NCBI RefSeq assembly: GCF_902506345.1
Contig: NZ_LR733413.1
Coordinates: 2,381,893-2,445,892 of the forward strand
Source of the DNA: Flavobacterium sp. 9R
Lineage (GTDB): Bacteria; Bacteroidota; Bacteroidia; Flavobacteriales; Flavobacteriaceae
Reading direction: 5' to 3'
DNA length: 64,000 nt
The notes beneath the pieces were generated by a model that was given only the letters and a program-made list of their open reading frames with translations, did no database searches and was not told the DNA's origin. A program made the translations under genes and the position numbers. Of the stretch, positions 14,543 to 39,056 are shown in pieces (position 1 is the stretch's first letter; each line of letters opens with the position of its first letter).

Positions 14543-14890
14543 TTAAATATCTTTTTTGACTAGCACATAATAGTCATTCTCTAAAATCATATAACCTTGG
14601 TCGTACAAAAAATAGTAGGTATTTCCTGTTTTGGTATTCAAAATCGAAGTAAAAAATTCAAAGTCAAAACCCTTGCTCATCAACTTGGCTCGAGTCGTTT
14701 TCGTTTTACCTTCTACATTCAATTCTGACAAAATTCGGTAATTTTTGCGCAACTTATTGTTAATATTCCGCATATAATTCGTACTATCCTTATTTATTTT
14801 ATTGTTGTAGGCATTTCGGCAGCTATCGCTACAAAATTTCTTGTCCTCGCGACCTACAATTTTTTCACCACATTCTAGGCAGGTTTTCAT
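14543..14890 (-). CDS. Small zinc-ribbon protein
   Basis: A 115-residue protein. The N-terminus has a treble-clef or zinc-ribbon pattern of four cysteines (C4, C7, C20, C24; CLECGEK and KFCSDSCRNAYNN). A basic helical stretch follows (NYMRNINNKLRKNYRIL). The C-terminal half (FTSILNTKTGNTYYFLYDQG, then YYVLVKK) looks like a small beta domain. Such proteins are common in Flavobacteriia and have no known job. It ends 19 bp before the M28 peptidase start and is probably its operon partner. Confidence 0.72.
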   Translation of the reverse strand: MKTCLECGEKIVGREDKKFCSDSCRNAYNNKINKDSTNYMRNINNKLRKNYRILSELNVEGKTKTTRAKLMSKGFDFEFFTSILNTKTGNTYYFLYDQGYMILENDYYVLVKKDI

Positions 14891-14946: not shown

Positions 14947-15050
14947 ATTGGTTATCATTGGTTCCTGCTGTCCTTCCTATCTTTTTTGCCCCGAGAAAAA
15001 TTGGGTCAAAAAAGGATATTCCCTCCCATCAGGGCTAGTTAGGGAACAGG
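14947..15050 (-). repeat. Dispersed repeat family 2, inverted copy
   Basis: The reverse complement reads ctaactagccctgatgggag, then atatccttttttgaccc, then cggggcaaaaaagatagga. It matches in order the plus-strand copy at 16126-16225 (CCCGATAGGAGCGGCATCC, CTTTTTTTCACC, CGGGGGAAAAAAGATATAG). The two copies are inverted relative to each other and lie on either side of the DUF559 repeat locus. Confidence 0.65.
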
Positions 15051-15061
15051 GTTTTGTGTTT

Positions 15062-15299
15062 GTTTTCTCATTTTACACACCCCTAACCCCTCTCGAGAGG
15101 GGAATTAAAATGTGCTTAATGATGTGTTTTGGGTATTATTCACTTTGATTCTCTCGCTTGACACACCCCTAACCCCTCTCGAGAGGGGAACTTAAATGTG
15201 CTAAATGATACGTTTTGGTTAGTATTCAAAATGTGTTTTAAACACTAAACGTTTTGCGTTCCTAGCTCCCCTCTTGAGAGGGGCTGGGGGTGTGTTTTT
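15062..15299. repeat. Palindromic repeat array 1 (copies A, B and inverted C)
   Basis: Three copies of an element built around a 16-bp palindrome. Copy A core 15087-15102 and copy B core 15173-15188 are both CCCCTCTCGAGAGGGG, 86 bp apart and in the same orientation. Each has acacacccctaa before the core and aatgtgctaaatga-like sequence after it. Copy C (core 15268-15283, CCCCTCTTGAGAGGGG) is inverted, with ctgggggtgtg after it. B plus C form an inverted pair about 140 bp long (15161-15299), and the same pair recurs at 15951-16091. The array touches the 3' end of the DUF559 gene. Confidence 0.88.
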
Positions 15300-15669
15300 C
15301 ATATTCTATGATATAATACTCAATAGCTCGCAAAACATTCTCCATATCTTTCAAAACTTGTTCATCTGTAAAACGTAAAACCGTAATCCCTAACTGATTC
15401 ATTCTTTTCTCTTTTACAGTGTCTTTATTATATACTTCTAAAAACTCGTGGGAATACCCATCGACTTCAATTCCTAACATCAACTCATAACAAAAAAAAT
15501 CTAAAATGTAACTATCTATAGGCTTTTGCCGATGAAAATCATAACCATACATCTGTTTTCCTTTCAGCTTTAACCAAAGAAAAATTTCTGTTTTAGTCGA
15601 ATCATTTCTTAATTGTCTAGCCAATTCTTTTAGCTTTGGATCGTATGGAATGATTTTTCGTTTGGCCAT
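15262..15669 (-). CDS. DUF559 protein, PD-(D/E)XK nuclease-like
   Basis: A 135-residue DUF559 protein. Visible features are the N-terminal LARQLRNDSTKTEIFLWLKLKGK, then YDFHRQKPIDSYILDFFC (D57) and GIEVDGYSH (E68, D70), then GITVLRFTDEQVL. D57 and E68-x-D70 fit the PD-(D/E)XK core shared with Vsr-like endonucleases; activity of DUF559 proteins is not established as far as I know. Most of the coding region is family-typical, but the last 11 residues (KHTPSPSQEGS) and the stop are encoded by inverted palindromic repeat C. The gene is the only one between two arrays of that repeat, which suggests a mobile or repeat-linked unit. Confidence 0.85.
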   Translation of the reverse strand: MAKRKIIPYDPKLKELARQLRNDSTKTEIFLWLKLKGKQMYGYDFHRQKPIDSYILDFFCYELMLGIEVDGYSHEFLEVYNKDTVKEKRMNQLGITVLRFTDEQVLKDMENVLRAIEYYIIEYEKHTPSPSQEGS

Positions 15670-15711
15670 TTCGTTATAATCTTAATAAATGAGGCGTTTG
15701 GTTGTATTGTT

Positions 15712-16091
15712 CATTTTTATTTTCTCACTCGACACACCCCTAACCCCTCTAACTCCTTATGATATTTATTTTGGAGTCGTTGAATCTTCGATTTCAAGAG
15801 GGGAATTCGAATGTGCTAAATGATATGTTTTTCGTTTCTATTCACTTTAGTTCTCTCGCTTAACACACCCCTAGCCCCTCGCGAGAGGGGAATTAAAATG
15901 TGCTAAATGATATGTTTTTCACTATTATTCACTTTGGTTCTCTCACTTGACACACCCCTAACCCCTCTCAAGAGGGGAATTCGACTGTGCAAAAAGAGAT
16001 ATTTTGGTTATTATTCAAAAATGTATTTTTAAACACTAATGGTTTTACGTTCCTAACTCCCCTCTTGAGAGGGGCTGGGGGTGTGTTTTTG
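15712..16091. repeat. Palindromic repeat array 2 (copies D, F, E and inverted H)
   Basis: Four copies of the same element. Copy F has its core at 15875-15890 (CCCCTCGCGAGAGGGG) and copy E at 15962-15977 (CCCCTCTCAAGAGGGG), 87 bp apart. Copy D starts at core base 15744 and is split by 44 extra bases (15751-15794) between cccctct and caagagggg, so D to F is 131 bp, that is 87 plus 44. Copy H (core 16059-16074) is inverted and ends in ctgggggtgtg. E plus H (15951-16091) repeat the layout of the B plus C pair of array 1. The array lies about 40 bp upstream of the DUF559 start. Confidence 0.88.
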
Positions 16092-16125: not shown

Positions 16126-16225
16126 CCCCTTGTTACTCTCTAACCCCGATAGGAGCGGCATCCTTTTTTTCACCTTTCGGGGGAAAAAAGATATAGCGGA
16201 TAGCGGGACGATGCTTCCTGAAAAG
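16126..16225 (+). repeat. Dispersed repeat family 2, plus copy
   Basis: It reads ctctaaccccgataggagcg, gcatcctttttttcacc, a short GC hairpin (ctttcgggggaaaa), then agatatagcggatagcggga and gatgcttcctgaaaagcc. The same blocks occur at 38963-39056 and, in part, at 63973-64000; inverted copies are at 14947-15050 and 38599-38696. Confidence 0.75.
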
Positions 16226-16259: not shown

Positions 16260-17798
16260 CTATTTCTCTCCGTTTTTTATCTTTTTTATTTCGTACAAAT
16301 CGGTTCTTCGGTCTTTAAGGATGCGCACGCTGCCGTGTTCGTGCAGCTCTTTGAGCAAATCCAAATCGACGTCGACAATCAGTGTCATCTCGGTGTTGGG
16401 TGTGGCTTCGGCTTTGATGCCGTTGCTCGGAAACGCAAAATCCGAGGGCGTAAACACCGCCGATTGCGCATACTGAATATCCATATTATTGACCTTAGGC
16501 AAATTCCCCACACATCCCGCTATGGCTACAAAACACTCGTTTTCGATGGCTCGCGCTTGGGAACAATGTTTGACTCTGGTGTAGGCGTTTTGCGTATCGG
16601 TCAGGAAGGGGACAAACAAGATATTCATTCCTTCGTCGACCATTAATCGGGAGAGTTCAGGGAATTCGACATCGTAACAAATCATCACGCCTATTTTCCC
16701 GCAATCGGTATCAAAGGTTTTGATTTCGGAGCCGCCTTTCATTCCCCAATGTTGAACCTCATTGGGCGTAACGTGAATTTTGGCATACATCTCTGAAGTC
16801 CCGTCGCGCTTGCACAAAAAACCAACATTATACAAATTCCCGCCTTCTAAATACGGCATACTTCCCGTGATGATATTGATGTTGTACGAAATGGCAAACT
16901 CCTGAAACCGCTTGCGAATTGGGTCCGAATATTTGGCCAATTCGCGTATGGCTTCGGCCTCGGTGAGATGATTGTAATCGGCCATCAAAGGCGCGGTGAA
17001 CAGTTCTGGAAACAACGCAAAATCGCAACCATAGCCCGAGACCACATCGATAAAAAACTCGGATTGTTCAAACAAGGCGTCGAGATTGGAGAGCGAGCGC
17101 ATTTGCCACTGAATAAGCCCTAGCCGAATCACTGATTTTTCGGTGTTGATGAGCTTGGGACTTTCGTCATAATAAATGTTATTCCACTCGAGCAAAACGG
17201 CGAATTCCTTCGAATCTTCATCGCCTACTAAATAATTTTTGATGACGCGCAACACGTGAAAATCGTTGCTCAACTGAAACGACAATACGGGATCGTGTAG
17301 TTGTTTGCTTTTGATTTTGTCGATGTATTTTTTGGGCGACATTTTATCGGCATACTGCCCATAATTGGGAATTCGTCCCGCAAAAACAATCGCTTTTAGG
17401 TTGAGTTGTTCGCACAGTTCTTTGCGGGCATCATACAAACGGCGTCCCAAACGCAAGCCGCGATAATTGGGATGAATAAACACATCGATGCCATACAAAA
17501 TCTCCCCAAACGGATTGTGGGTCGAAAACGAATAATTGCCTACGACCTCCAAATAATTATGGCGTTTGTCGACCAATTTTTCGTCTACAATCAACGACAA
17601 GGCCGAACCCACCACTTTCCCATCGGCCAAAATCACCAACTGTCCTTCGGGAAAAATGGCCAGTAAGCGCTCGATGTCCTCGGAACGCCAATAGGAATCG
17701 GCCATTTCGGGATAGGATTCCACCATCGAGTTCTTGAGTTGCTTATAATCCTCAAACGCCAAATTGCGCAATTCTACTTTTTTGATTTTCGTTTGCAT
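16260..17798 (-). CDS. GNAT acetyltransferase-nitrilase fusion protein
   Basis: A 512-residue two-domain protein. Residues about 5-205 form a GNAT fold (LRNLAFEDYKQLK; the acetyl-CoA loop region HPNYRGLRLGRRLYDARKEL). Residues about 225-495 form a carbon-nitrogen hydrolase with the Glu-Lys-Cys triad: E265 in FPELF, K340 in YAKIHVTP, C374 in CYDVEFPE. This fusion is common in Bacteroidota and is annotated as bifunctional GNAT/carbon-nitrogen hydrolase. The two activities probably act on the same small amide, but the substrate is unknown. It has no signal peptide and is cytoplasmic. Base composition here is somewhat GC-richer than in the flanking repeats and in the Mrr gene. Confidence 0.9.
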   Translation of the reverse strand: MQTKIKKVELRNLAFEDYKQLKNSMVESYPEMADSYWRSEDIERLLAIFPEGQLVILADGKVVGSALSLIVDEKLVDKRHNYLEVVGNYSFSTHNPFGEILYGIDVFIHPNYRGLRLGRRLYDARKELCEQLNLKAIVFAGRIPNYGQYADKMSPKKYIDKIKSKQLHDPVLSFQLSNDFHVLRVIKNYLVGDEDSKEFAVLLEWNNIYYDESPKLINTEKSVIRLGLIQWQMRSLSNLDALFEQSEFFIDVVSGYGCDFALFPELFTAPLMADYNHLTEAEAIRELAKYSDPIRKRFQEFAISYNINIITGSMPYLEGGNLYNVGFLCKRDGTSEMYAKIHVTPNEVQHWGMKGGSEIKTFDTDCGKIGVMICYDVEFPELSRLMVDEGMNILFVPFLTDTQNAYTRVKHCSQARAIENECFVAIAGCVGNLPKVNNMDIQYAQSAVFTPSDFAFPSNGIKAEATPNTEMTLIVDVDLDLLKELHEHGSVRILKDRRTDLYEIKKIKNGEK

Positions 17799-38598: not shown

Positions 38599-38696
38599 GC
38601 CAAGGCACCACGCTATCCGCTATAGTTTTGCAAAACCTTAAATGGAAGTTTTGCAAAAGCTGCCGCTCCTATCGTTATTGCGGTAAGGTGCAAAAA
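38599..38696 (-). repeat. Dispersed repeat family 2, inverted copy
   Basis: The reverse complement contains cgataggaggcggcag-like sequence (cgataggagcggcag), then two gttttgcaaaac-type palindromes in place of the usual centre, then actatagcggatagcgtgg. The ends match the copy at 16126-16225 and the centre differs. Confidence 0.65.
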
Positions 38697-38962: not shown

Positions 38963-39056
38963 CTCACTAGCCCCGATAGTAGTGGAAATCCTTTTGGGGC
39001 TGGGGTTCAGCACCAAAAGATTATAACGAAGAGCGGGACTTTGCTTCCTGAAAAAG
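38963..39056 (+). repeat. Dispersed repeat family 2, plus copy
   Basis: Blocks ctcactagccccgatagtag, gaaatccttttggggc, ttataacgaagagcgggact and gcttcctgaaaaagcc follow the order of the 16126-16225 copy. With the inverted copy at 38599-38696 it brackets 270 bp of further palindromes. Confidence 0.7.

Follow-up and report, generated by a model that had tools for sequence, protein, structure and literature searches.

What does a small nuclease gene do between two arrays of palindromic repeats? The question is raised by a locus of Flavobacterium sp. 9R, in a 64,000-nucleotide stretch of its genome (contig NZ_LR733413.1, positions 2,381,893 to 2,445,892; this whole stretch is the window, to which coordinates refer unless another locus is named), where a gene for a DUF559 protein, the single DUF559 match in the 3.58-Mb genome, is bracketed by copies of a short repeat. 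Our answer, which we hold to be probable, is that the gene and the repeats form one mobile element, with the palindromes as the cognate ends of a homing-like nuclease. It builds on the observed linkage of DUF559 genes with such repeats, the inverted flanking copies, the match between repeat type and nuclease lineage, sites that are filled in some genomes and empty in others, and cassettes that lie in frame within host genes. Each flanking palindrome is a short G/C-rich hairpin that bears, on one side, a foot rich in C or G.

The gene (15262..15669, minus strand) encodes a 135-residue nuclease of Vsr/EDxHD fold, and its assignment to DUF559 in the initial annotation is solid (PF04480, E 2.4e-28). 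That annotation also described seven palindrome copies around the gene, and both the copies, six intact and one split, and their spacings were borne out. Repeats A (15075..15107, core 15087-15102) and B (15161..15192, core 15173-15188) lie on the plus strand and are followed by the inverted partner of B, repeat C (15264..15295, minus strand, core 15268-15283). On the other side of the gene are the split copy (15732..15807, plus strand; a left half at 15732-15750 and, some 43 bp further on, a right half at 15794-15807), repeats F (15863..15895, core 15875-15890, with one change) and E (15950..15981, core 15962-15977), both on the plus strand, and the inverted partner of E, repeat H (16055..16086, minus strand, core 16059-16074). 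Direct copies are 86 bp (A to B) and 87 bp (F to E) apart and the inverted partners 95 bp (B to C) and 97 bp (E to H) from core to core; the stretches that hold C (15236-15299) and H (16027-16090) share 94% identity across 64 nt. Two features can be added to the earlier description: the gene overlaps repeat C at its 3′ end, such that the repeat encodes the protein tail (HTPSPSQEGS), and the two arrays share one direction rather than being mirror images. A typical unit, ACACACCCCTARCCCCTCTNNAGAGGGGAA, consists of a C-rich foot followed by the 16-bp palindrome. The core form CCCCTCNNNNGAGGGG occurs six times in the window, always at the array, compared with a mean of 0 in 200 single-base shuffles. 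Genome-wide, CCCCTCTNNAGAGGGG was matched 14 times when up to one mismatch was allowed, and the reversed-pattern control not at all; six of these cores are in the array and eight are dispersed, some as inverted pairs with core distances of 230 bp (L034) and 587 bp (L033). The loose pattern CCCCN{3,9}GGGG was uninformative in this genome (38 matches vs 39 for the control).

The association of gene and repeats extends well beyond this locus. We fetched DUF559 loci regardless of repeats; each was scored by the best inverted repeat that its 350 bp upstream formed with its 350 bp downstream, using a threshold score of at least 14 and other positions in the same loci as controls. Of the Flavobacterium loci, 29 of 45 reached the threshold (controls 2/262), as did 16/29 loci of a phylum-wide draw (1/65), 30/79 named loci (28/75 without duplicates; controls 1/989) and 19 of 32 alphaproteobacterial DUF559 loci (0/86), so that DUF559 genes are indeed flanked by repeats more often than expected, as the initial annotation had asked. 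The 45 genus loci are a subset of 53 full-length Flavobacterium DUF559 matches; the phylum-wide draw contains a few Flavobacterium loci. Two loci with short flanks (L073 and L092) were left out of the scoring. Four loci (L081, L099, L125 and L127) duplicate others (L002, L080, L079 and L017, respectively), and one locus set, the best 80 of 566 confirmed, favors in-frame types because the query alignment had four in-frame sequences among its six. Standalone genes reached the threshold at 16 of the 23 genus loci fetched, and a CCCC..GGGG palindrome lay within 600 bp of 16/23 standalone genes, on both sides in 11. Arrays of the locus's own repeat type surround DUF559 at L047 (genome G073) and L021 (G030). 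Further afield, Escherichia coli K-12 MG1655 (L253) has a single repeat-like copy on the 3′ side of ycjD, a region whose coverage is 80% or more in 3,362 of 5,426 E. coli genomes (the query matched a median of four places per matching genome); as an empty-site test ycjD was set aside, the three fetched strains without it carrying other genes there and no clean empty site.

Repeat type also follows the lineage of the nuclease. Repeat distance was correlated with DUF559 protein distance in Mantel tests across 73 distinct loci that had a clear pair (r 0.66), within the genus (r 0.78, n 29) and among standalone genus loci (r 0.85, n 16), with p 0.001 each, and the median repeat distance was 0.17 between the left and right copies of one locus vs 0.65 between loci. 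The same match is seen inside single genomes: G055 holds three DUF559 lineages, each with its own repeat type, and G092, G033 and G021 hold two each.

At the level of whole genomes, we compared 38 Flavobacterium genomes with a full-length DUF559 gene to 63 without, counting the pattern CCCCTCYN{2,3}RGAGGGG, copies beside the genes included; the reversed control gave 0 hits. The palindrome was present in 27/38 genomes with DUF559 and 11/63 without (Fisher p 1.3e-7), and at least three copies were present in 23/38 and 3/63 (p 7e-10), which answers in the affirmative the earlier question whether repeat number tracks the presence of DUF559. The exact window-type core is found in 12 of the 101 genomes. 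Four genomes carry a window-type DUF559, and in these it is present in 11, 12, 13 and 5 exact copies; among the other 97 only G033 (six) and G036 (five) have at least five.

Could these be ordinary repetitive extragenic palindromic (REP) sequences moved by REP-associated tyrosine transposases (RAYT), with DUF559 as a passenger? RAYT-family genes (PF01797) are common enough, being present in 68/101 Flavobacterium genomes and matched twice in the 9R genome itself, but their presence was not significantly associated with that of the repeats (Fisher p 0.19; 0.14 for at least three copies), and two repeat-rich genomes, G055 (10 repeats) and G073 (12), gave no RAYT match. The CCCC..GGGG palindrome lay within 600 bp of none of the 21 RAYT genes examined, drawn from 15 repeat-bearing genomes, as against the 16/23 standalone DUF559 genes; several RAYT genes instead have ends of their own, such as AGCTCCGTAGGAGC, that differ from the DUF559 repeats (L319, L320, L325 and L327). 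RAYT was therefore rejected as the mobilizer, and the passenger explanation is largely refuted and very improbable. Systems of REP, their inverted pairs (REPINs) and RAYT (also TnpA-REP) nevertheless resemble what we describe, in that short palindromes occur singly, in inverted pairs and in arrays, the enzyme gene is flanked by its own repeat type, and repeat and enzyme diverge jointly (the points of likeness drawn from parts of PMC6006769 and PMC3733652). The window locus likewise has an enzyme gene flanked by repeats of a dispersed type; the window protein, however, belongs to PF04480, with a Vsr-like fold, and not to the HUH/Y1 tyrosine transposases to which RAYT belongs, and DUF559 genes, unlike RAYT, themselves occur inside host open reading frames (ORFs). 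Nor was a tag of GTAG type established at the hairpin foot of these repeats, although no search aimed at it was made. The initial annotation had proposed that DUF559 may make, spread or depend on its repeats as RAYT does with REPs; a partnership is supported by locus linkage and genome counts, and the likeness is one of role only, the enzyme being unrelated.

Residence inside other genes is frequent. Among the 53 full-length Flavobacterium DUF559 domains, 30 lie within open frames of 597 to 1,386 residues, and the 22 of these examined are all in-frame cassettes, in MetH (12), LeuRS (3), an AddA-like helicase (4) and RecG (3). Another count gave 111/155 loci in frame, a figure biased by a query alignment in which four of six sequences were in frame, so that 30/53 is the fairer one. 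Pfam searches of 21 fusions selected from the whole phylum set confirmed as hosts MetH, a UvrD/AddA-like helicase, LeuRS, IleRS, MetRS, RecG, HsdR, UvrA, aldehyde dehydrogenase-MaoC, DegT aminotransferase, adenine deaminase, GcpE, UDP-GlcNAc 2-epimerase, a PurL-type amidotransferase and a DNA methylase; cassettes near the protein end (GcpE and PurL type) may be tail fusions instead of internal inserts. IleRS, MetRS, UvrA and further hosts were contributed by Bacteroidota outside Flavobacterium. In many cassettes both palindromes are translated, as in MetH, where the order is host, SPPTPEGG, DUF559, APPSGAGG, host. One frame (L024, genome G016) holds two DUF559 domains together with LeuRS.

MetH has both filled and empty sites. 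Of 89 Flavobacterium genomes in which the sites could be read, 10 have a cassette at site 1, the junction of the cap and B12 domains, and 2 at site 2, in the activation domain. All gap lengths are multiples of 3; inserts of 432-492 nt, barely longer than DUF559 itself, contrast with shorter alleles of 33-48 nt, or 15-57 nt at the second site. No second strong MetH match was listed for the ten genomes with a filled site 1, and thus the fused copy is apparently the only one. Two alleles of the second site, L004 and L013, contain a palindrome-coded insert of 78 nt that lacks DUF559; in L006, a third allele of this length, the insert is not palindrome-coded. L015 has a 111-nt insert that keeps sequence from both cassette ends, which we read as loss of the nuclease. 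An AlphaFold model of a whole MetH fusion had a mean pLDDT of 60.5 and was not used.

In the DUF559 tree the domains cluster by host site. AddA, RecG and HsdR domains form one group each (support 98, 97 and 99, respectively), whereas MetH site 1, LeuRS and IleRS require 8, 6 and 4 changes; all ten host labels together require 26, vs 90.6 when shuffled. This clustering fits site-bound, homing-like lineages with some moves. In a tree from which seven site-1 MetH rows had been omitted as long or odd before counting, the five site-2 cassettes form a clade with two site-1 cassettes (L002 and L082; support 100/99), and a cassette has likely jumped between the two MetH sites; monophyly of all site-1 rows was not rejected (approximately unbiased test, p 0.125). 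The nuclease is under purifying selection, with a dN/dS of 0.05-0.12 for the DUF559 domain in the 10 of 17 pairs for which it could be computed.

What kind of enzyme would this be? DUF559 matches Vsr by fold and the EDxHD homing endonuclease I-Bth0305I by both sequence profile and catalytic fold, and it had been assigned earlier to the EDxHD family (as stated in part of PMC9403480). Residues E28, D57, E68, D70, H74 and D83 are invariant in 14 DUF559 sequences, and E28, D57, H74 and D83 probably correspond to the ordered E, D, H and D catalytic residues of the motif. DUF559 resembles I-Bth0305I also in having site-bound lineages with filled and empty alleles; it differs in that its cassette has palindromic ends and remains in frame with the host ORF, no intron or intein being identified. 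The MetH inserts hold only DUF559 or the overlapping MTES_1575, and no splicing domain of the kind that defines an intein (Pfam, E up to 1e-3); hosts other than MetH were scanned by Pfam at E up to 1e-10. Pfam likewise found no further DNA-binding domain in the 135-residue window protein.

Recognition, cutting, copying and movement by DUF559 are inferred from this fold together with the observed pattern. The nuclease would recognize the palindrome, perhaps as a hairpin, or else a sequence that the palindrome interrupts, and would nick or break empty or repeat-bearing alleles; repair could then copy the cassette along with its ends. Loss of the cassette middle would leave inverted palindrome pairs, and further copying would yield solo repeats and arrays, so that solo repeats and inverted pairs would represent non-autonomous or deleted derivatives. 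Translation can run through the ends, which then contain no stop codon, so that a host protein can stay functional after an insertion into one of its surface loops; the element could thus be maintained in an essential gene with no need of a self-splicing intein or intron. A bolder proposal, which we advance tentatively and consider somewhat less likely to hold than not, is that these are non-splicing, intein-like selfish elements: cassettes of a homing-type nuclease with translatable palindromic ends that enter conserved, often essential genes in frame (MetH, LeuRS, IleRS, MetRS, RecG, UvrA and others), are expressed with the host protein, home between alleles and shed solo palindromes that become REP families.

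Several observations weigh against the single mobile element. The threshold was missed by 49/79 named and 16/45 genus loci, among them L012, L020, L021 and L050, which have another palindrome with a CCCTAAAGGG core (by eye), and by all AddA (0/4) and RecG (0/3) cassettes, which may therefore be old, fixed domains. Foot orientation is not the same in all classes: the window-type foot points toward the gene, the MetH-type foot away from it. Filled MetH sites have some host codons replaced rather than a clean insertion with target duplication. Alphaproteobacteria showed no in-frame insertion in the 8 longer frames inspected, which look like GC-rich upstream open frames that stop beside the domain. 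The correlation of repeat and protein could owe something to linkage and common descent, and linkage alone might suffice; phylogenetically independent pairs on the MetH tree pointed in the same direction as the genome counts and were not significant, with 7 supported pairs. Lastly, the 11/63 genomes with repeats and without a full-length DUF559 include G005 (11 copies) and G051 (8), where no DUF559 remnant was found near the 6 and 7 copies examined, respectively.

Such orphan repeats would be expected if the palindromes were pre-existing REP-like targets into which DUF559 homes, the repeats themselves spreading by another route. The second MetH site, which is occupied by DUF559 in other genomes, also has REP-only pairs that would fit this explanation, as would an in-frame repeat in G005 (L303, near 1484), a translated palindrome (STPNPSKGGE) in an 858-residue ORF that we read by eye as PurL. 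Window-type repeats in numbers, however, are almost confined to genomes with the window-type nuclease, and the L015 allele, with its cassette ends kept and the nuclease gone, looks like the outcome of a loss and not like a virgin target; we consider the explanation unlikely.

A further possibility is that DUF559 is a resident Vsr-like repair or defense nuclease and that the palindromes are terminators or regulatory hairpins collected nearby. The Vsr fold and the form of the palindromes, which suits terminators, are compatible with it, and a mismatch-repair role has been proposed for VsrA, another DUF559 protein, of Caulobacter (in part of PMC12907096), a role that also counts against the mobile element. 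In contrast, the in-frame cassettes of MetH and LeuRS are flanked on each side by a translated palindrome, a strong argument against this possibility; inside a single genome repeat type matches nuclease lineage, and dispersed copies lie away from any DUF559. Flanking cognate palindromes and in-frame residence likewise set DUF559 apart from the Vsr mismatch-repair endonuclease, and Pfam found no cytosine methyltransferase among four neighbor proteins in the window. We judge a resident nuclease improbable, and retain the mobile element as the better account.

The in-frame cassettes also recall the Rickettsia palindromic elements (RPEs), palindromes that are translated in frame in unrelated protein genes (parts of PMC10969869 and PMC3733652). 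RPEs are, however, about 150 bp long, with no enzyme named for them in those parts, whereas here a nuclease lies between the palindromes; translation of the palindrome in frame within a host protein is seen in the in-frame relatives and not in the window copy. The window repeat units contain no CGTC, the tag reported at the hairpin foot of RPEs, and a scan of 32 alphaproteobacterial DUF559 loci gave two stray CGTC hairpins. CGTC-tagged REPs as the partner of DUF559 in alphaproteobacteria are thus unsupported.

How did the gene and its repeats come to lie at their present place? In the window, 1,369 bp separate the neighbors of the array, which are a zinc-ribbon-like gene (14543-14890) and, on the other side, a GNAT/CN-hydrolase gene (16260-17798), whereas the same gap in the 13 relatives whose fetched stretch contained both genes measures 0-985 bp, at most 20 bp in seven, and lacks the repeat core in all (20 loci were fetched, and the left neighbor was found in 14 including the window locus; the relatives' lengths, measured between tblastn matches, are accurate to a few bases). 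Two Flavo-1 RNA elements lie outside the array and are not part of the proposed element, one on the left (14957..15040, minus strand, 54.1 bits) and one on the right (16138..16214, plus strand, 69.5 bits), so that the insertion of the nuclease and its repeats may have taken place between two copies of Flavo-1. One relative (L204), whose genome has no DUF559 match, carries an inverted Flavo-1 pair without the repeat core in the same gap, and the order of events may have been the Flavo-1 pair first and DUF559 with its repeats second. The window contains four Flavo-1 (RF01705) elements in total, the others being an inverted pair at 38602-38689 (minus strand) and 38965-39044 (plus strand) that encloses about 275 bp, inverted repeats included (by eye). 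An Mrr-type restriction endonuclease gene (PF04471, PF14338; 17856-18752, minus strand) lies two genes from the DUF559 gene.

EDxHD nucleases, in-frame palindromes and the pairing of REPs with an enzyme are each already known. Their combination was not found in searches of open-access literature, and no title or abstract opening listed there described repeats around DUF559. For some palindromic repeat families the mobilizer is not known, and CGTC repeats apparently lack a dedicated transposase (in part of PMC3733652). A nuclease paired with its own palindrome type supplies another large group of such repeats, found in Bacteroidota and Alphaproteobacteria, with a partner that can be tested, and under the bolder proposal above DUF559 would join RAYT as a second class of enzyme that makes bacterial REP-type repeats. 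The cassettes also raise the sharper question of how synthetases, MetH and DNA-repair helicases can accommodate a foreign nuclease domain, about 110 residues long and joined by palindrome-coded linkers, which persists in frame under purifying selection with no splicing domain identified. If homing is true, these elements would offer a simple system for studying a gene drive that needs no splicing and the passage of selfish DNA into protein domains.
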